From the NCBI GenBank assembly GCA_017522445.1, contig JAFWZK010000039.1, forward strand, positions 1 through 40,370: a stretch of DNA of 40,370 nucleotides. The letters run 5' to 3'. Below the pieces are notes generated by a model. That model was not told the origin of the DNA. It was given only the letters and a program-made list of their open reading frames with translations, and did no database searches. The stretch is from Alphaproteobacteria bacterium. Its GTDB lineage: Bacteria; Pseudomonadota; Alphaproteobacteria; Rs-D84. Below are positions 17,984-40,370 of this stretch, piece after piece. The stretch's first letter is position 1, and the number at the start of each line of letters is the position of its first letter. The position numbers were made by a program, and so were the translations under genes.

Positions 17984-18010
17984 AAAAACGCCAAATTGGC
18001 GTTTTTTTTA
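17982..18010. terminator. Bidirectional terminator, lpxB / exported protein
   Basis: ACGCC, AAATT, GGCGT flanked by A7 and T8 tracts between two convergent genes. Confidence 0.9.
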
Positions 18011-20497
18011 CATGCCTTCGGGTACCAGATTCAATATATTATTCCCTACTTTACATTCATTACCGTCTTCGTCTTGTTCTGCGCCAATTGGGCATACTTT
18101 GTTTTTATTCGTAATGACAGGTTGAGTGCACCAATTTGTGGTGTCTTTCTCACGGGTAAAAGATTCTGATTCGATTTGTGCTATGTTTTCTGCGGTGCAA
18201 TCGCGGTCGTTGGCAGGTTCACCGTTCCAAGTGGCCGGTAATGCCGCAACGCATTTTGGTGATTTGCCCCATTTACTGCGACGGCCACCGTTTTCCCAAC
18301 ATAAACATGCACCCCATGATTGAGTGTCAACCTGGGCACGATAGTCGCGTGGACACATATCCTCGCCCGAGCCAATGGAATAAGCTGTTGTGTATACTCG
18401 GTAGATTGGGTTTGTCGCAATCTTGGATTTGCAAAAATCATCCTCGTGATAATTATTTTTGTTAATATAACGATATTCAACAAAGCGACCCTGCAGGTTT
18501 GTGCATTGGGTGGACAGCTGTGACAGAATTTGATGATAAACCTCGGTTGCTACACCAATCTGACGAATTGCACGCTCTTTATAACCGGTTGTCTCTTTCA
18601 GACCGTACTGTTTTTTATCTGTGTAATAATCCAAGCCGCCAAATACGGTTTCTATCATCTTCTCGTCGTTGCATGCGTCAATGGTTGTCAGCTGTTGTGC
18701 ACATTTTGAAACATATACAGGATTCGCATTGTCTGATGATTCCTGCGTTTCGTATAATGCAAACCAACGAAGTGCGTCACCCTGCTCGAACAATCCGCTG
18801 AATGGATAATAGAAATTTTCATAGTTTTGACCGCCGTATTTATCAAAACACTGTTTTGCAATTGCACGGCATGCCGTCAATGTGTCTGTCTGGGTGTGGT
18901 TGTTGATATAGTCCGCAATTATGTTGCCATCAAACATGTTGTCACAGGAATTAACATAGTCCTGGCACATGGTTGCGTTTAACTGTATCTTATCGGGTTG
19001 CAGCAGCAGTGCACTGTCACCACTTAGACCAGCCATTGCCGCAGTTATTGCGGTGTCACCATTCATATAGCATGCGGTGATGTAATCAAAACAACCACGC
19101 TTGATTTGGGCAACTTTGTCCCGCTGGGAATAGTAGATTGATAACATTGCTTTGTCCAGATACTCGGACCATACAAAGTCAGCGTTTTCTACACACTTGT
19201 CCAATGCGGGTTCGGCAAATTTTTTGACGCGATTTTCAAAGTTTGTTACAAAATTGCGGTTGCTGGGATTTTTGGACAGTTTTTGATCTACTGCTTCGAT
19301 TCCGTCGCTGAACGTTAACATTTTTTCCAGTTTATAAAAGTCTTCGATGCCAGATATAGGGGCACCGGTGGATACATCTATAAACTCGCCATTGTCCAGG
19401 CATTTATGATAGTTTGCACCACAAACCTCTTCGCTGAGTATTGCTGTTTCTACCTCGTTCATACAGGTGGTGATATCAGAAGAATTATGTTTTTGACGGT
19501 TCTCGATGCGGGCCAAATCCAGCATGGCACCGCCTTCGCGGACGGCAGACTTTAATTGTTTTTGTGTGTTTTCAATTGCGGTTTGAACCGCGTTGCAGTC
19601 CTGTTCAATCGCCATTAAATATGCGGTAATGGCACGTTGCAAAGACGAATCGTTGCAGTCGGCACGAACCGCCTGGCGACACTGAGGATATACCGCATTG
19701 TACAATGCGTTGCCGTTATATGCGGCGATGGCCTGGCCTATGTCTGTCATGCCAAACGCATTAACTGTGTCAAATGTTATGTTAATACTGTTTAAATCGG
19801 CATATTTACCGCCAACAGTTGTGTCTTCGCCGCGGATAGAGTTCATAATGGCGTTTAATAATGCCTTGGATGCGGAATTATCGCTGGTAAATGCCTTCTC
19901 GCCTTCGGTTTCCTGACGCATGGCAGTGGCCTGGGCGGCAGTCATACCAACGGTTTCCAGATTCTCGGTGAATACGGTTAGCTGGTTGCCCGCATCTTGT
20001 AAAACTTTGCGAAGTTCGGTCAGTTTAAATACGCGGTCATTGCACGAGCATCTGCGATAGTCGTCGTTCTTTAATTTGCAAAACTGGTCCATGCATGAAA
20101 AATACGTATTCTTACAGCGTTCGTATTCGACACCTGTTTGAGTGCTGGATATTACCGAGGTGTCAGATGTTGCACTGCGTGCAGAAATGTTGGTCGAACC
20201 GCCACGTTTCGCAGTTGTTTTGGTCGTTGTGCGGGGGGCTGTTGTACGTGCTGTCTTTGCTTTGCCGGTCGTGCGTGATGACACGGTGGTTGCCGTGCGA
20301 GATATGGTTGCGTCAGAACGTGGTTTTAGCGCCGTTGTTCGTGGCGTGGTTGTGCGTGCAACGCTGGTGGCTGTGCGGGACTGGGTTGTGTCTGTGTCCG
20401 ATTTTGTACGTGAAACAGCCGTTCCATCACGAACAGCCGCATTGGCAAAACCAACGCAAATCAACAAATTTGTAATTAAAACCAGAATTTTATTCAT
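18008..20497 (-). CDS. Large exported Cys-rich protein with Arg/Thr-rich linker, unknown
   Basis: An 829-residue protein with no recognised family. A signal peptide (MNKILVLITNLLICVGFANA) is followed by a low-complexity Arg/Thr/Ser/Ala region (about 21-110, repeated RTT and ART groups). From about residue 120 there is a Cys-rich part that begins CKNTYFSCMDQFCK and CSCNDR, and many more paired cysteines run to the end. The start at 20497 is chosen for the signal peptide; the frame is open to 20599, but the upstream residues lack a signal. Disulfide-stabilised periplasmic or surface location is likely. It ends at a shared terminator with lpxB and is divergent from the tRNA cluster. Confidence 0.8.
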   Translation of the reverse strand: MNKILVLITNLLICVGFANAAVRDGTAVSRTKSDTDTTQSRTATSVARTTTPRTTALKPRSDATISRTATTVSSRTTGKAKTARTTAPRTTTKTTAKRGGSTNISARSATSDTSVISSTQTGVEYERCKNTYFSCMDQFCKLKNDDYRRCSCNDRVFKLTELRKVLQDAGNQLTVFTENLETVGMTAAQATAMRQETEGEKAFTSDNSASKALLNAIMNSIRGEDTTVGGKYADLNSINITFDTVNAFGMTDIGQAIAAYNGNALYNAVYPQCRQAVRADCNDSSLQRAITAYLMAIEQDCNAVQTAIENTQKQLKSAVREGGAMLDLARIENRQKHNSSDITTCMNEVETAILSEEVCGANYHKCLDNGEFIDVSTGAPISGIEDFYKLEKMLTFSDGIEAVDQKLSKNPSNRNFVTNFENRVKKFAEPALDKCVENADFVWSEYLDKAMLSIYYSQRDKVAQIKRGCFDYITACYMNGDTAITAAMAGLSGDSALLLQPDKIQLNATMCQDYVNSCDNMFDGNIIADYINNHTQTDTLTACRAIAKQCFDKYGGQNYENFYYPFSGLFEQGDALRWFALYETQESSDNANPVYVSKCAQQLTTIDACNDEKMIETVFGGLDYYTDKKQYGLKETTGYKERAIRQIGVATEVYHQILSQLSTQCTNLQGRFVEYRYINKNNYHEDDFCKSKIATNPIYRVYTTAYSIGSGEDMCPRDYRAQVDTQSWGACLCWENGGRRSKWGKSPKCVAALPATWNGEPANDRDCTAENIAQIESESFTREKDTTNWCTQPVITNKNKVCPIGAEQDEDGNECKVGNNILNLVPEGM

Positions 20498-20590
20498 CTC
20501 TGGTGTAAAGTTTAGCAAAAATACCAAAAATGACGCAAGTGAATAATAAAATGTGGGTGTGTATATTTTTTCTGTTTTTTTGTTTTTTTC

Positions 20591-20622
20591 TTGTTGCAAA
20601 TATTATAAAATTAGTATATTAT
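20591..20622 (+). promoter_or_regulatory. Promoter of the tRNA cluster
   Basis: TTGCAA (20594-20599), 17 bp, TATTAT (20617-20622), or TTGTTG (20591-20596), 18 bp, TATATT. Transcription would begin just before tRNA-Leu at 20634. Confidence 0.6.
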
Positions 20623-21486: not shown

Positions 21487-23130
21487 TTAATTCGTTGTCC
21501 ATGGGGTGTCGTTCATTATCAAATAATACAGTGCACTGTTGTCTGTCCCGGGGTTCTGTAAAACAGGACGGACAACGAATATATCAACGTTACATGGTGT
21601 GTTTCGACCGTTTTGAATTTCAATTAAGTCCTGGTGAAATTTGGCGGCAAAATCCATCACCTGCAGATATGCGGCATCGTCATCGGCCGGATTGGTGGAA
21701 TCGCCCATCCACATCAGCCACATGCCATAGTTTACAACGTCTTCCTGGGTCGCCAGGTCGTCAGCCGATAATAATAACAGTGGCGCGAAGTCCAGTCCAC
21801 TTGTAAATTCATCGGTGGTGTTGTCTGTAATGTCGTACATGTCGCCCGCAAATTTAAGTATACCTGTCAATAGCCCTGCCCCTGCCCCAACCTTGGCAAC
21901 CATGCCGGCATTGCGAAGTGTTGAATCAAACAGCCAATCACGTACGCGGTTTGAAAAACCGCTGGAACGGCCCAGTTTGCGTGCGTGTTTTATTAAACTG
22001 TTGCCGGTCATGGCGGATTTTGTTGCACGGGCTGTGCGTGCAATGACGTTGCCACGGTGGGCAATACGTATGCCACGTAAACTGTGGCGATATTTGTTCA
22101 GTTCCGAAAATGTTTTGGTCGCATCGCGATACTTTTTTACATCATCGGTTGATTCCAGGGTGCGAATGCTGTTATTAATTCGGTTTAACTCGGCAGTTTT
22201 GTCTGCGATTTCTGCGATTTTTGTGGCATCAGCGACTTTGTCCAGTGCGTTAATTTCTTTGGTCAGGCGGGCGGCATCCTGGGTGGCACGGACATATTTA
22301 ACAACATCGTCTGTTTTGGACAATGTTTTGATTGTAGAACCCAGACCACGCAGTGCACGTGATGCACGGGCGGCCTTGGTCGCACCCAGGACGGCCGTAT
22401 ATCCGCCCATGGTCGCAACCGTTAATATAACGTCCAGTGCAATTTCTGTATAGCCAATCCATTCCAAATTGCGATCGCCGGCAATGTAGTAATCGTTTGT
22501 GTCGTCGTCCAGGTTAACAGTTTGTGCAACGGCACGGTTTATCGCATAGTTGTCGTTCGCCAATGCTGTGCGATTGGTGCATGTGCCACCACGGGGATAC
22601 AGGGTGTCAATGTTGTCCCGAATGTATTCCAACGAAACGGTATTGTTCTTGTCTGGGCCAACAAATTCGGATAATGAACCATGTTCGACAACCATAATTC
22701 CGTACCAGGCCGGGTCTGTGTTTGTCCAAACGGTTCCGTCATTGGATTCGCCGATTTTGGGACTGGCGGGGGTGTCGCGTTTGGTTGTCATCACCATACG
22801 TTGTTGCAGTAACTTTGGTGATGTTTCATAATTTACAGTGATGTTACGACCGCCCGGGAATGTGTATGTGATTGGCGAAAATATAATTGGTTGTGTCGGT
22901 GCGGTGTTGGCAATTTCTGGGCATGCCAGAACACGTTCCAGTGTGTCTTTTGTTGCAAAAGTTTGGCGAACCCATTTATGGACCGTTGATTCTGAATCAG
23001 ATTCAGATATAGCCCCAGAGTTTGCCGCCAGTGCATCAGAAAATGCCCCCGATGCACATGGCGTTTGCATCGCATGTGCAGAAGATATAATTATAAAATA
23101 TGTTGCAAAGATTAAAATGTGTCGCCACAT
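21487..23130 (-). CDS. Exported protein with coiled coil, unknown
   Basis: A 547-residue protein with a signal peptide (about 1-20, ending SSAHA). The part after it is unrecognised; a hydrophobic segment lies at about 235-257 ([21 protein letters not shown]), then an Ala/Lys/Asp-rich likely coiled coil (about 258-355), a basic Arg/His-rich stretch (about 355-415), and a second hydrophobic Gly-rich segment near 420-440. The two internal hydrophobic parts suggest membrane insertion after export. Its start overlaps the end of the upstream gene by 19 bp, so translation is probably coupled. Third exported protein of the prepilin-peptidase operon. Confidence 0.75.
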
Positions 23131-26222: not shown

Positions 26223-28376
26223 ATGTCAAACGAGAGAGAAAAAATTTATCAACCATTGACAAGCAAGGACTTTGAAATCCAAGGGATAGCGTTTCGTGCC
26301 TTTTACGATGCGGATGATAAGCTGGTCTTGGTTTTGGATTTGACGGTTGATGAACTGAAACCAAACGTTTTGTTGGTTATTAATCCCATGGGTAATCGTA
26401 AATGGGATGATATTTTGATGAATGATTTCGGAATCGATTTAGAGACTGTACGTCCAAAAAAGGATAATAAATATCAAAAATTAGATATAGAATATGCCGG
26501 GTTGGCGGATTATGATGCTGTAATTTCAGCAATGCAAAATGGCGAAAATACCGACGTGGCAATGAAAAAATTAATGCGTTTTCGGACCGCCGCAGCCAGA
26601 CGGGCCGCGAATGAACGACTGACAGCGGCAGAGCTGACTGCAGAAAAATCACGTGAAACAATCGAGAAAACAACTGAAGCAATCACAGATTTGCAAGAAA
26701 AATTAAAAAAACTGCGGGCAAAACTGGCAGAATATCGCCGGAATGTCGGCAAAGAACCAACCAAACAATCGGCGGCCAGGATTCTGAAAACAGAATCGCA
26801 GATAGATGCAATAAATGATAAGTTGGCACGTGCAAAAAAACGACTGGATAATGCAAAAGTTCGATTGGATGCGGCCGAAGACGATAAAGAACAGGCAATT
26901 CATATTTTAGGATTGCTGGATAATAACAATGTTGAAAATGCTGATGATGAACAAGGGGCGGATTTGCCAATGGTGGCACCAGTGTTTAAGGTTATGCAAC
27001 CACAACCTGAAAATGGCGATGTTATGGTTGTAGAACCTGTGCCTGTGCCCGCAACTGTTCGTTCGGCAGATAATGATATAACCATGGAATCAAAGGCAAC
27101 TGAAATGGCAGACGAAGAAGTTAAACCATTGTTTGATAAAAATCCAAACATCTTGGATGAAGAAATTGCATTTAAACCAATTGACTTTGACGTGTCGACC
27201 GGCAAAACTGCACCGGTTGAACCTGTGGCACAGCCGGCACATGATGTGGCACCGTTGTCTTTTGCACCACCTGTTGCCAGCCAGAATGCTGATGATAAAC
27301 CTGTGGCAGATGCAGATTATTCCCGTGAATATATCGAACCAATCGGTGGTTCAATGTTGGACAGTTTGACCCCCGTTGTGTTGCCGTCTGAACAGATTGA
27401 TTCTGAATTAATGTCGGATGTGCAGTCCACGCCAGACCTGGTGTCGGAACCTGATATGCCACACCCAGTTGCAGCATCGGCAGATGTGCCCAGTGCAACA
27501 TCACAAGTAATGCCAGAAATTGCACCTGCACCAGTCGATTCAGGGTTCAGACCTGTGTCTCCAATTACAGGTATGGCGACATCAGAAACCGTGGTGACAA
27601 ATCGTAAACCAACTGCGTTGTACTATGTTATGTTGGTTGTACTGATTGCGTTGTCAATATTTACGCTGTGGATGTATCAAACCAAGGTTGCAAATGATGC
27701 CAATCCTGATTTAGGTGCAAAAACAGAACCTGTAGAAGAGATTGTTGTTGAAGAAACCGTCACAAAAGATGCTGTGCCAGAGCCAATTGTTGAAGAAAAA
27801 TCGGTGGAACCAGAACCCGCGACAGTGACGCCTGTGGCGGTCGTTGATGTCGCAGAAATCGTGGCAGATGTAGAACCAGAACCTGTGCCAGTTACGCCCG
27901 CACAGCCCGTTGCAGCGTTGCCTGAAATTCAGCCAGAACCTGTTGTTGTGACACCAGAACCAGAGCCAGTTGTTGTCACAGAAGAACCTGTTAAGAAAAT
28001 ACCGACCGAGGCGGAAGTGCTGGCATCAAAGCCATCTTATAATGTTTCGCAAAATGAAAAAATGTTCCTGGCAGACGATGATTATGAAACAGATGAGGTT
28101 TATGAAGAAGTTGTACAGACATTGCCCAATATGGCGACAAGTAAGCCCGCAGTGACGGTTGGCGGTGCGTCTGTGGTTGTCCAACAACAGCCCGCCCCTG
28201 CACCTGAGATATATGCCGAAGATTTTGTCACAGAAGAGGTTGTGGAAACATGTGCCGATGGAAATTTACCCGATGCAGATGGTTGTTGTGCAGGGGAATT
28301 CTTGGCCGATATGGGGGGCGGTGAATATGCGTGCTGTGTCGAAGAAACTGGTGAGTGTTTCCCGCCAATGTTTTAA
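26223..28376 (+). CDS. Single-pass membrane protein with coiled coil and Pro/Glu-rich regions, unknown
   Basis: A 717-residue protein with no recognised family. The N-terminal domain (1-115) looks globular and cytoplasmic; a strong coiled coil runs about 120-228; a long acidic Pro/Val/Ala-rich stretch (230-460) leads to one membrane helix at 465-485 (ALYYVMLVVLIALSIFTLWMY). After it comes a Pro/Glu/Val-rich periplasmic stretch (490-670), of the kind that spans the periplasm in TonB/TolA, and a six-Cys tail (CADG, GCC, ACC, ECF). It starts 27 bp after gcrA and may be co-transcribed. The plan suggests a protein linking cytoplasm and envelope. Confidence 0.8.
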   Translation: MSNEREKIYQPLTSKDFEIQGIAFRAFYDADDKLVLVLDLTVDELKPNVLLVINPMGNRKWDDILMNDFGIDLETVRPKKDNKYQKLDIEYAGLADYDAVISAMQNGENTDVAMKKLMRFRTAAARRAANERLTAAELTAEKSRETIEKTTEAITDLQEKLKKLRAKLAEYRRNVGKEPTKQSAARILKTESQIDAINDKLARAKKRLDNAKVRLDAAEDDKEQAIHILGLLDNNNVENADDEQGADLPMVAPVFKVMQPQPENGDVMVVEPVPVPATVRSADNDITMESKATEMADEEVKPLFDKNPNILDEEIAFKPIDFDVSTGKTAPVEPVAQPAHDVAPLSFAPPVASQNADDKPVADADYSREYIEPIGGSMLDSLTPVVLPSEQIDSELMSDVQSTPDLVSEPDMPHPVAASADVPSATSQVMPEIAPAPVDSGFRPVSPITGMATSETVVTNRKPTALYYVMLVVLIALSIFTLWMYQTKVANDANPDLGAKTEPVEEIVVEETVTKDAVPEPIVEEKSVEPEPATVTPVAVVDVAEIVADVEPEPVPVTPAQPVAALPEIQPEPVVVTPEPEPVVVTEEPVKKIPTEAEVLASKPSYNVSQNEKMFLADDDYETDEVYEEVVQTLPNMATSKPAVTVGGASVVVQQQPAPAPEIYAEDFVTEEVVETCADGNLPDADGCCAGEFLADMGGGEYACCVEETGECFPPMF

Positions 28377-37829: not shown

Positions 37830-38333
37830 ATGGAAAACAGTTTTTCTATGTTAACTTTGTTTACAGGCGACATTATGACACTGTGTGTGTCTGTTGTTTT
37901 GTTGATATTCAGTGTTCTGTCATGGGCGGTTATTATAGAGAAGTTCCGACTGTGGCGTATGGCAAAAAAGAATCCTGTAAAAATCAAGCCAAATGATAAT
38001 CTGAACGTGATTGTAGACAGACTGGTTCGGCCATTTGATAAAAATTTGTGGTTTTTGTCTATGGTGGCATATATCTCGCCTTTTATTGGGTTGTTTGGAA
38101 CTGTGTGGGGTGTTATGGATTCGTTTGCGTCCATTGGTGTAAATCAGTCGGTCAGTATCGGTGTTATTGCACCGGGATTGGCGGTGGCACTGGGGACAAC
38201 TGCGTTGGGACTGATTGCGGCGGTGCCGGCGGCAATTGCACATCAGTATTTTGCAAAGCGGGCCGACGATTTATACGAACGTCTGGACGATACACGTCGT
38301 GAAATGCAATCAAAAAACAAGGATAAAAAATAA
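37830..38333 (+). CDS. tolQ: TolQ, short form
   Basis: Proton-channel subunit of the Tol system, which drives outer-membrane constriction at division. Three membrane helices are seen: about 15-37, 77-98 and 112-137. The conserved ISPFIGLFGTVWGVMDSF and the Gly/Ala-rich third helix (APGLAVALGTTALGLIAAVPA) are present. At 167 residues it is about 60 shorter than E. coli TolQ (230), with the loss mainly in the cytoplasmic loop between TM1 and TM2. The stop overlaps the tolR start by one base. Confidence 0.92.
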   Translation: MENSFSMLTLFTGDIMTLCVSVVLLIFSVLSWAVIIEKFRLWRMAKKNPVKIKPNDNLNVIVDRLVRPFDKNLWFLSMVAYISPFIGLFGTVWGVMDSFASIGVNQSVSIGVIAPGLAVALGTTALGLIAAVPAAIAHQYFAKRADDLYERLDDTRREMQSKNKDKK

Positions 38334-38731
38334 TGACACGTATAAGACGCAGACAGTCAGATGCAGGAATTCAACTAACGCCTATGATTGATGTTATGAC
38401 GGTGTTGTTGGCGGTGTTTATGGTCACAACCCCCATGATGACAACGGGAATAGATTTAGAATTGCCGCGGGCCGGTGCATCCGCAATGACGGGCAACGAT
38501 CACGCAATTCAAATAAGTGTAGATTCGTCTGGACGCTTTTTCCTGTCTGAAATGGAGTTGCCATGCGATGAAATCGTAAAGCGGGCGATCGCCATGCGTG
38601 AAGAAAATCCACAACTGACCATTATGATAAGTGGTGATACACATGCAGACTATGGTGCGGTTATGTCTGTGATGGGAAAACTAAAGGATGCTGGCTTCCA
38701 AAAGGTTGGTTTAAGAACGCAGCCGGAGTAA
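38333..38731 (+). CDS. tolR: TolR
   Basis: A 132-residue TolR/ExbD protein. The basic N-terminus is followed by a membrane helix (about 17-38) with the proton-carrying D20 in LTPMIDVMTVLLAVFMV, and a periplasmic domain of about 90 residues. It works with TolQ to energise TolA. It overlaps tolQ by one base and precedes tolA by 7 bp. Confidence 0.95.
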   Translation: MTRIRRRQSDAGIQLTPMIDVMTVLLAVFMVTTPMMTTGIDLELPRAGASAMTGNDHAIQISVDSSGRFFLSEMELPCDEIVKRAIAMREENPQLTIMISGDTHADYGAVMSVMGKLKDAGFQKVGLRTQPE

Positions 38732-38738
38732 AATTAAA

Positions 38739-39524
38739 ATGAATAAATGGTGGCGACAGTTTAATGCTGAAAATATTTTAATGTCAGTTGGTGCACACCT
38801 GGCGTTGGCGGCGGTTATGGTTACTTCCTTTGTTATTGTAATGAACCGTGCAATGATGGTCGCACCAGACAGAATCGAAATTATGGAAATCGACCTGAAT
38901 GACGTTGCGGTCAGTGGTGATGAAACGAAACTGTACAACGTGGGTCAGGTGGCAGAATCAATACCCGAAGAAGAAACGTCTGCCCCAGTGGCACAGCCGG
39001 AACCAGAACAACAGGAACCTGAGCCCGTGACAGATGAACCTGAAAAACTGGATATAGAACAGCCAACACTGGTCGAAGAGCCAAAGCCAGACCCCCTGCC
39101 CCAGCCACAGCCAGAACAAACAGAATCAAAACCTGTGGAACCCGCACCCGTTCCCAAGAAAAAGAAAAAAGTGGTGCGTGTCAATCGCGAAGTTTTATCA
39201 CTGGAACGTACGTTAACTGTTTCTGTGGTGGATGCGTTGCGTGTGGCAATGACACGTTGCTGGGTCATAGATACAAAACGCCCCGATGTTGCAGATATTC
39301 GTGCGGTGGCACATTTGACCATGCGTAAAAATGGAACCGTGCGTGATGTTTGGTTCGAATCCGCCGCACGGGCAGATAATGATCCTGGGTTTGCGTATGT
39401 GCTGGAAACAATTCGTTCGGCCATAGATACATGTCAACCGTTTCGTATGTTGCCTGAAAACGAGTTCAGTAAATGGCAAAAAATTCAGTTAACTTTCTAT
39501 CCCACCCAGGGTAAGGTTATGTAA
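38739..39524 (+). CDS. tolA: TolA (TonB/TolA-like energy transducer)
   Basis: A 261-residue protein. One N-terminal membrane helix (about 14-36), a Pro/Glu/Gln-rich periplasmic spacer (about 75-145, ending in PKKKKK), and a C-terminal TolA/TonB-like domain with two cysteines (RCWVID and DTCQPF) that may form the conserved disulfide. It is in the tolQRA order. The spacer is Pro/Glu-rich like TonB rather than the long Ala/Lys helix of E. coli TolA. tolB and pal do not follow; a terminator and rnpB come next. Confidence 0.88.
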   Translation: MNKWWRQFNAENILMSVGAHLALAAVMVTSFVIVMNRAMMVAPDRIEIMEIDLNDVAVSGDETKLYNVGQVAESIPEEETSAPVAQPEPEQQEPEPVTDEPEKLDIEQPTLVEEPKPDPLPQPQPEQTESKPVEPAPVPKKKKKVVRVNREVLSLERTLTVSVVDALRVAMTRCWVIDTKRPDVADIRAVAHLTMRKNGTVRDVWFESAARADNDPGFAYVLETIRSAIDTCQPFRMLPENEFSKWQKIQLTFYPTQGKVM

Positions 39525-39661: not shown

Positions 39662-39993
39662 CGTCAGATGAACGGAACATGGCTGATTGTCGTTTGACGG
39701 TCAGAGGAAAGTCCGGACTGCATGGGACGACGCACTGGCTAATCTACCAGGCGGGGCGACCCGACGATTAGAGCAACAGTGACGAAACGATTAAGTTCGA
39801 GTGAAACGGGCAATCTCTGCGTGCAGCAACTTCAAATAGGCCCCCTATGCTGGTCCCAGGCGGGGGCGGGTAGAAGGCTTGACATATCGCAGTAATGCGA
39901 TATGCAGATTAATCATGTTCACTGCCCCGGTATGAGTAAGCAATTACTGGGCTGGTGGCAGAACAGAATCCGGCTTATATGTTTGTCTGTGCA
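39662..39993 (+). ncRNA. rnpB: RNase P RNA (bacterial class A)
   Basis: The catalytic RNA that trims tRNA 5' leaders. Conserved region I, GAGGAAAGTCCGGAC, is at 39704-39718. AGAGCAACAGTGACGA with the later GTGAAACGGGCAA and GGTAGAAGGC-type segments match the core, and the 3' ACAGAATCCGGCTTAT is at 39963-39978, pairing with region I to form P4. P1 is CAGATGAAC (39665-39673) with GTTTGTCTG (39981-39989), including G-U pairs. Ends are estimated from P1 to within a few bases. It has its own promoter and terminator. Frames open across it are not genes. Confidence 0.95.
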
Positions 39994-40020
39994 CGTGTCC
40001 ATTTGGGCACGTGTTTTTTT
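39991..40020 (+). terminator. rnpB terminator
   Basis: CACGTGTCC (39992-40000) pairs with GGGCACGTG (40005-40013, one G-U), followed by T7. Confidence 0.88.
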
Positions 40021-40033
40021 GTGCAAAAAACAC

Positions 40034-40063
40034 TTGCATAAATTCCGCGGGATGCAGTATAAT
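40034..40063 (+). promoter_or_regulatory. Promoter upstream of the surface-protein gene
   Basis: TTGCAT (40034-40039), 18 bp, a perfect TATAAT (40058-40063). AAGGAG at 40076-40081 follows; the only start near it is a TTG at 40092 that opens a 6-codon frame ending in TAA inside the left inverted repeat. Confidence 0.65.
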
Positions 40064-40100
40064 ATCTGGCATAGCAAGGAGATTACCACTGTTGTTTTTT

Positions 40101-40195
40101 AACGGTGGTTAAAAATTGGCATATTTGTTAAATATTTTTTCCCAGAAATCCGCATGTTTCACATCCCCCCATGGTGTTGTTTTTTAACCACCGTT
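40101..40195. repeat. Perfect 15-bp inverted repeats flanking a 65-bp segment (candidate invertible switch)
   Basis: Left arm AACGGTGGTTAAAAA at 40101-40115; right arm TTTTTAACCACCGTT at 40181-40195. The right arm lies within codons 4-9 of the surface-protein gene as written. If the segment between is inverted, an ATG behind GGGGGGA joins the coding frame after the right arm without a stop, and the left arm becomes a perfect hairpin with TGTTGTTTTTTAAC arms. No recombinase gene is in the window. Confidence 0.7.
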
Positions 40196-40370
40196 TATTT
40201 TCGGCAATTCGTGTATTATTGGTGTCAATTGCACTGATGTCAACCGGCGACGCATTTGGCATTATATGCAATGCGGGGTATTACCTGTCCAATGGCACAT
40301 GCGTCAAGTGCAGTGCGGGAACATATTCTGCCGCAGGGGCAACATCATGCACTTCATGCGGTACAGGTAA
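40171..40370 (+). CDS. Cys-rich surface protein, 5' end (partial)
   Basis: The start of an exported protein that runs off the right edge; 66 codons are seen. A signal peptide (about 1-30; hydrophobic core RVLLVSIALMS, ending GDAFG) is followed by CNAGYYLSNGTCVKCSAGTY and TSCTSCGTG, a pattern like GCC2/GCC3 or TNFR-type Cys repeats of large surface proteins. The ATG at 40171 is the only ATG in frame, but it has no ribosome-binding site: CCCCCC precedes it. The N-terminus lies across the right arm of an inverted repeat, and an alternative N-terminus (MRISGKKYLTNMPIFN before HRLFSAIR) would be made if the segment is flipped. As drawn, expression is doubtful. Confidence 0.7.
   Translation, partial: MVLFFNHRLFSAIRVLLVSIALMSTGDAFGIICNAGYYLSNGTCVKCSAGTYSAAGATSCTSCGTG

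Follow-up and report, generated by a model that had tools for sequence, protein, structure and literature searches.

The window analysed here, a stretch of 40,370 bp, is the whole of contig C38 and ends inside a gene for a Cys-rich secreted protein. It comes from a MAG (G000; 991 kb in 62 contigs) of a gut alphaproteobacterium of the Candidatus Enterousia group, whose genome is about 1 Mb in size. Three large ORFs of the window, of 863, 547 and 717 aa (18008-20599 and 21487-23130 on the reverse strand, 26223-28376 on the forward strand), have no Pfam match at an E-value of 0.001. Towards its end, a TolQ-like gene of the MotA/ExbB family, a small gene and a gene for a TolA-like Pro-rich protein (37830-39524) lie just upstream of the RNase P RNA gene, which is followed by a promoter, a leader and a short segment bounded by inverted repeats, the right arm of which runs into the first codons of the Cys-rich gene (Table 1). 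The last 82 bp of the window (40289-40370) overlap the end of contig C17 (L012) in frame and with one mismatch, and about 690 further codons of the truncated gene probably lie there; the assembly break falls in a repeated Cys-rich module common to contigs C2 and C17.

Table 1. Features of the switch region and its further copies in the source genome (window coordinates unless a contig is named)
Feature	Position	Strand	Remarks
rnpB (RNase P RNA gene)	39664..39994	+	Rfam RF00010, 178.4 bits; upstream neighbour, outside the switch
Fixed promoter TTGCAT-18-TATAAT	40034..40063	+	outside the segment; conserved before 5/5 copies in the genome (located by pattern in the four non-window copies)
Leader AAGGAG	40076..40081	+	in the OFF state serves only a six-codon TTG frame
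Putative invertible segment, 95 bp	40101..40195	.	OFF orientation in the window; inverted counterpart at contig C8
Left inverted-repeat arm, half of recombination site	40101..40115	+	core dinucleotide GT at 40105-40106, placed from palindromic half-sites
ATG start codon of start module	40153..40155	-	inside the segment
Shine-Dalgarno GGGGGGA of start module	40164..40170	-	faces the gene only once inverted
Forward in-frame ATG, OFF state	40171..40173	+	no Shine-Dalgarno; preceded by CCCCCC; lost in copy C23
Right inverted-repeat arm	40181..40195	-	with the bases after the arm, translated as NHRLFSA
Cys-rich secreted protein gene, 5' part	40187..40370	+	cut off by contig end
Further cassette copies	C2:8766-8860; C47:2975-3069; C23:1172-1266; C8:2737-2831		a different gene for a secreted protein follows each copy

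The two arms are perfect 15-bp inverted repeats with 65 bp between them, and when the window was shuffled 20 times with dinucleotides preserved, no inverted-repeat pair of such quality appeared. As assembled, the segment is in the orientation that we call OFF: the TTG frame behind the leader closes at a TAA within the left arm (40110-40112), and the forward ATG has a Shine-Dalgarno duplex energy of +1.0 kcal/mol, versus -12.7 kcal/mol at the ATG on the opposite strand (pairing scored against an E. coli-type anti-SD). When the segment is inverted in silico (the ON orientation), it reads GGGGGGA, 8 nt, ATG and the frame MRISGKKYLTNMPIFNHRLFSAIR, which stays open to the contig end. These elements, namely the repeats, the promoter with its AAGGAG and truncated frame, the forward ATG lacking a ribosome-binding site, and an inverted reading in frame with the signal peptide, had been picked out in the initial annotation, and all of them are present. 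Its estimate that such a frame match would arise by chance in a few percent of cases was too low: shuffled inner segments of this locus have an in-frame inverted ATG in 51% of cases, and one with a Shine-Dalgarno in 15%. Because of the latter figure the window locus alone is weak evidence, and the significance of the frame match comes from its recurrence at many other loci. No terminator-like site was found within the window segment, and predicted mRNA accessibility does not differ between ON and OFF, the two states differing in the Shine-Dalgarno. An exact 24-mer of the module has no match in viral contigs.

Searching the source genome with the window region recovered four further copies of the promoter, the segment and the signal-peptide start; the additional repeats ahead of surface genes that had been anticipated are thus found at four other loci, one of them oppositely oriented. 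Four of the five cassettes, the window included, are OFF, and the copy on contig C8 is ON. Its flanks match those of the other copies and the inversion is confined to the 95 bp that the repeat cores enclose, so that the arrangement foreseen for the window is found assembled here: GGGGGA, 8 nt, ATG and MRIFGKKYLTNMPIFN fused to the signal peptide (DNA GGGGGATGTGAAACATGCGGATTTTTGGG..., protein MRIFGKKYLTNMPIFNHRLFSAFR...), with the frame open for more than 900 codons. Both orientations are thereby present among paralogous loci of one genome, C8 versus the four others, as they likewise are in a second species (G089). Differences private to one copy and close to the core move along with the inner segment, which is consistent with crossing over at the central GT. 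The half-site types agree in the ON state in the source genome and in the OFF state in G089, and the suggestion that the palindrome formed on inversion marks the older state is accordingly not upheld.

The comparison with related genomes, which the initial annotation had also suggested, found both orientations among the relatives. G089 has nine cassettes (94 bp where measured), eight of them OFF and one ON (C5:118-209). Its module has diverged (GGAGAGACAAAATG; MLRKSGKN..NMPKKNHR), the module ATG has a Shine-Dalgarno pairing of about -6.5 kcal/mol, and inversion gives MLRKSGKNSIQNMPKKNHRLF in frame. ON is found in 2 of the 14 cassettes of the two genomes, a departure from an even split (p = 0.006), and the OFF state is favoured in both assemblies; that each has exactly one ON cassette is suggestive only. 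The promoter and an AAAGGA leader are kept in most copies of both genomes. The leader itself, TGGCATAGAAAGGA...ACTG (e.g., window 40070-40094), is conserved across the two though it serves no conserved frame; candidate roles for it are an upstream ORF, ribosome standby or an ancestral start. A conserved upstream ORF initiated from the leader AAGGAG was rejected, as neither its start nor its frame is conserved between the two genomes. A profile built from the cassettes of both genomes led to a third species with start-type cassettes (G108) and to a general module pattern. G108 has one OFF copy and two ON copies with degenerate sites; it is the left sites of these ON modules (C1, L239; C16, L240) that are degenerate, and the two are perhaps locked ON.

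A search for recombinases, likewise indicated at the outset, turned up a serine recombinase gene adjoining one of the cassettes, at a distance of 0.7 kb (C47:3767-4378). The product is a 203 aa protein with a Resolvase domain and an HTH. At 278.2 bits it exceeds the cut-off (272) of the NCBIfam model NF009949, 'master DNA invertase Mpi family', and its alignment with Gin and the gamma-delta resolvase extends across the catalytic serine region. Relatives of this enzyme include one protein of Candidatus Enterousia excrementavium with 70% identity, and Prevotella, Treponema and Bacteroidales have homologues at about 60%. The gene directly adjoining that of the invertase in the source genome codes for a subtilase-like, autotransporter-type protein of 630 aa (L010 4375-6267). 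In G089, too, the gene for an Mpi-family invertase, with a score above the NF009949 cut-off, lies 0.7 kb away from a cassette, and among 46 genus genomes cassette matches co-occur with invertase orthologues of at least 64% identity (15/19 versus 5/27, Fisher p = 7e-5 with phylogeny ignored). The source genome holds five cassettes, a single Mpi-like gene and four tyrosine recombinases, and most likely the Mpi-family enzyme flips all five cassettes. That the inversion is real and is instead carried out by a tyrosine recombinase would agree with the four such genes and with the shortness of some repeats; we nonetheless think this unlikely, as the sites resemble those of serine invertases in having what appear to be palindromic half-sites around a 2-bp GT core, and the gene next to the cassette is a member of the master DNA invertase family and has orthologues that co-occur with the cassettes.

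Across the genus, the pattern of a ribosome-binding site followed by an ATG in such a module has 98 occurrences, spread over 25 of 156 genomes, versus a single one for the reversed-pattern control. Seventy-seven modules were read, and 46 of them are flanked by inverted repeats of 7 bp or more that enclose 82-109 bp. In 33 of the 46, inversion joins the module ATG to a frame that runs for 100 codons or more, versus 0 and 2 for the two remaining frames; such frame counts are inflated by the common ancestry of the cassettes, but the sites, the modules and the genes behind them are not the same from species to species. Nine of the 46 have an open frame without inversion (0 and 5 in the other frames). 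The repeats in G098 are reduced to a few bases around a conserved core, and inversion between these cores yields an in-frame fusion in 19/19 cases, versus 0/38 in the other frames, with fused N-termini that resemble signal peptides (e.g., MQKSGIKFLNIMPITIVGLGLAMVVNAASAAT). All classified modules are OFF in this genome (19) and in G087 (8), and for both we infer the ON state. DNA that never inverts has no reason to hold frame across a nonexistent junction, and it is accordingly the frame kept across the inversion junction that speaks most strongly for use of the inverted state. The original suggestion that the start codon and the ribosome-binding site are themselves flipped is supported by the inverted C8 copy and by the frame relation kept in other species. 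Codon-position bias is absent within the module (16, 16 and 19 changes at the three positions), and the module copies counted contain no stops in the ON frame, versus 19 and 18 in the other frames; so the module frame is maintained, with a peptide sequence that appears only loosely constrained and protein-level selection unproven.

These counts also bear on whether the cassette might be a static dispersed repeat that was inserted either way round and never inverts. Such a repeat would accord with the many copies, with the single orientation seen per locus in the assemblies and with the uniform direction of all classified copies in two genomes. We hold it to be extremely unlikely, however, since C8 and the other copies have both flanks in common with the inversion confined between the repeat cores, the frame-exact junction fusions of G098 would be senseless unless the inverted state were used, and an invertase of the right family adjoins a cassette.

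A further possibility is that both orientations are translated, the inversion swapping the N-terminus of the signal peptide and not turning expression on or off. In-frame starts (ATG or GTG; MVLFFNHRLF, MLFLNHRLF) do persist in most OFF copies, and much of the segment is open in the reverse frame. The forward start, however, lacks a Shine-Dalgarno and is preceded by the reverse complement of one; it has been lost (ACG, GTG) in the C23 copy and in C5 of G089, where the module ATG is retained; and a TAA closes the longer reverse frame in both the window and C8. An exchange of N-termini in this form is in our judgement improbable, and an ON/OFF switch is preferred, though one whose OFF state may be leaky because the forward ATG or GTG remains in frame.

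Related cassettes elsewhere in the genus carry a different cargo. Cassettes of about 94 bp with the same AACGGTGG/CCACCGTT cores hold a promoter in G021, G090, G161, G034 and G029: TTGAC-N17/18-TAAAAT lies inside the segment and the gene's own ribosome-binding site and ATG lie outside, with the promoter facing away from the gene in the examined loci of this type except that of G029. These relatives lend some credence to the idea that the window holds an ordinary Bacteroides-like invertible promoter, next to which the start-codon match would be incidental. Against this, a promoter-like site is found inside none of 44 start-type segments, whereas in 29 of the 44 loci a promoter aimed at the gene lies upstream of the segment, typically 53-70 bp before the left arm; the conserved TTGCAT-TATAAT of the window is likewise outside; and the gene has no start with a Shine-Dalgarno unless the segment supplies its ATG. 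We accordingly rate an invertible promoter at this locus as very unlikely. Related sites therefore carry either a promoter or a translation start, depending on the locus and the species. At a few loci of G042, G080 and G151 (L251, L338, L340, L308), identified by eye, an invertible promoter cassette and a reversed start module stand in tandem before one gene and share a site, and possibly constitute a two-key switch on transcription and translation.

Taken together, we consider it very probable that the window contains a site-specific inverton that acts as a switch on translation initiation for a surface-protein gene, most likely through an Mpi-family invertase, and that it was assembled in the OFF state. 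A fixed promoter outside the segment would transcribe the locus in either orientation, while the segment would carry the Shine-Dalgarno, the ATG and about 15 codons of the n-region of the signal peptide. In the ON state, the module would be joined in frame, via a translated recombination site (NHRLFSA), to the signal peptide's hydrophobic part and the Cys-rich protein behind it, and the resulting proteins would begin with N-terminal peptides such as MRIFGKKYLTNMPIFNHR or MQKSGIF. In the OFF state, the mRNA would have no Shine-Dalgarno before any in-frame start. The serine invertase is predicted to act in all five cassettes, on palindromic sites that span about 30 bp around a GT core. Reversibility in cells and an effect of orientation on expression are what the sequences suggest, each assembly displaying one orientation per locus and the predicted ON/OFF effect being derived from the Shine-Dalgarno and the frame only.

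In Bacteroides fragilis, the Mpi master DNA invertase acts on invertible promoters (PMC4747536, citing Coyne 2003). The system described here is similar in the NCBIfam family of its serine invertase, in its many small segments dispersed before surface genes and, as we posit, in the use of one invertase for many loci. It differs in that the flipped unit is not a promoter but a Shine-Dalgarno, an ATG and an n-region, in that its promoter stays in place outside the segment and in that its recombination site is translated, and it would represent Mpi-like phase variation without the defining trait of an invertible promoter. The nearest precedent for a moved ribosome-binding site and start codon is the vsa locus of Mycoplasma pulmonis, where a tyrosine recombinase moves a promoter, a ribosome-binding site and 714 nt of coding sequence between gene bodies (PMC2268961). 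There too inversion gives a silent surface gene its ribosome-binding site, start codon and N-terminus, but here about 90 bp flip in place at many separate loci and the promoter is unmoved. The cwpV and flg switches of Clostridioides difficile operate by transcription termination in the 5' leader, the ribosome-binding site and start codon staying put (PMC2784873, PMC7446863). The Candidatus Enterousia cassettes share with them an upstream fixed promoter, an invertible element before the gene and, as predicted, control after transcription initiation, but have the ribosome-binding site and ATG within the segment and no terminator-like site. The C. difficile recombinase RecV is of another class than the Mpi-type serine invertases. 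Intragenic invertons, reportedly described by Chanin et al. in Nature in 2024 (cited in PMC11892184), are said to recode or truncate proteins; they resemble the present cassettes in that inversion overlaps a coding region and alters the N-terminal coding sequence, and are not known to include a dedicated and repeated module of a ribosome-binding site and ATG like the one seen here. A full-text literature search, whose scope lay outside the key surveys of gene-altering and intragenic inversions, found no inverton consisting of a ribosome-binding site and start codon alone.

On a wider scale, we regard it as somewhat favoured by the evidence that Mpi-type flipping of translation-start modules, with the recombination site within the signal peptide, is a genus-wide phenomenon, complemented in some species by two-key switches of promoter and start. 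Known small invertons mostly move promoters or terminators, whereas the part moved here is the translation start. Tools that model invertons as promoters only would misread such modules, and gene callers will overlook or shorten the genes behind them because the start codon lies on the opposite strand in most assemblies. Start modules recur in many species of host-associated bacteria whose genomes measure about 1 Mb, and a single genome has them at up to about 20 loci; these predicted switches would bring both translation initiation and Candidatus Enterousia within the range of inversion-based phase variation.
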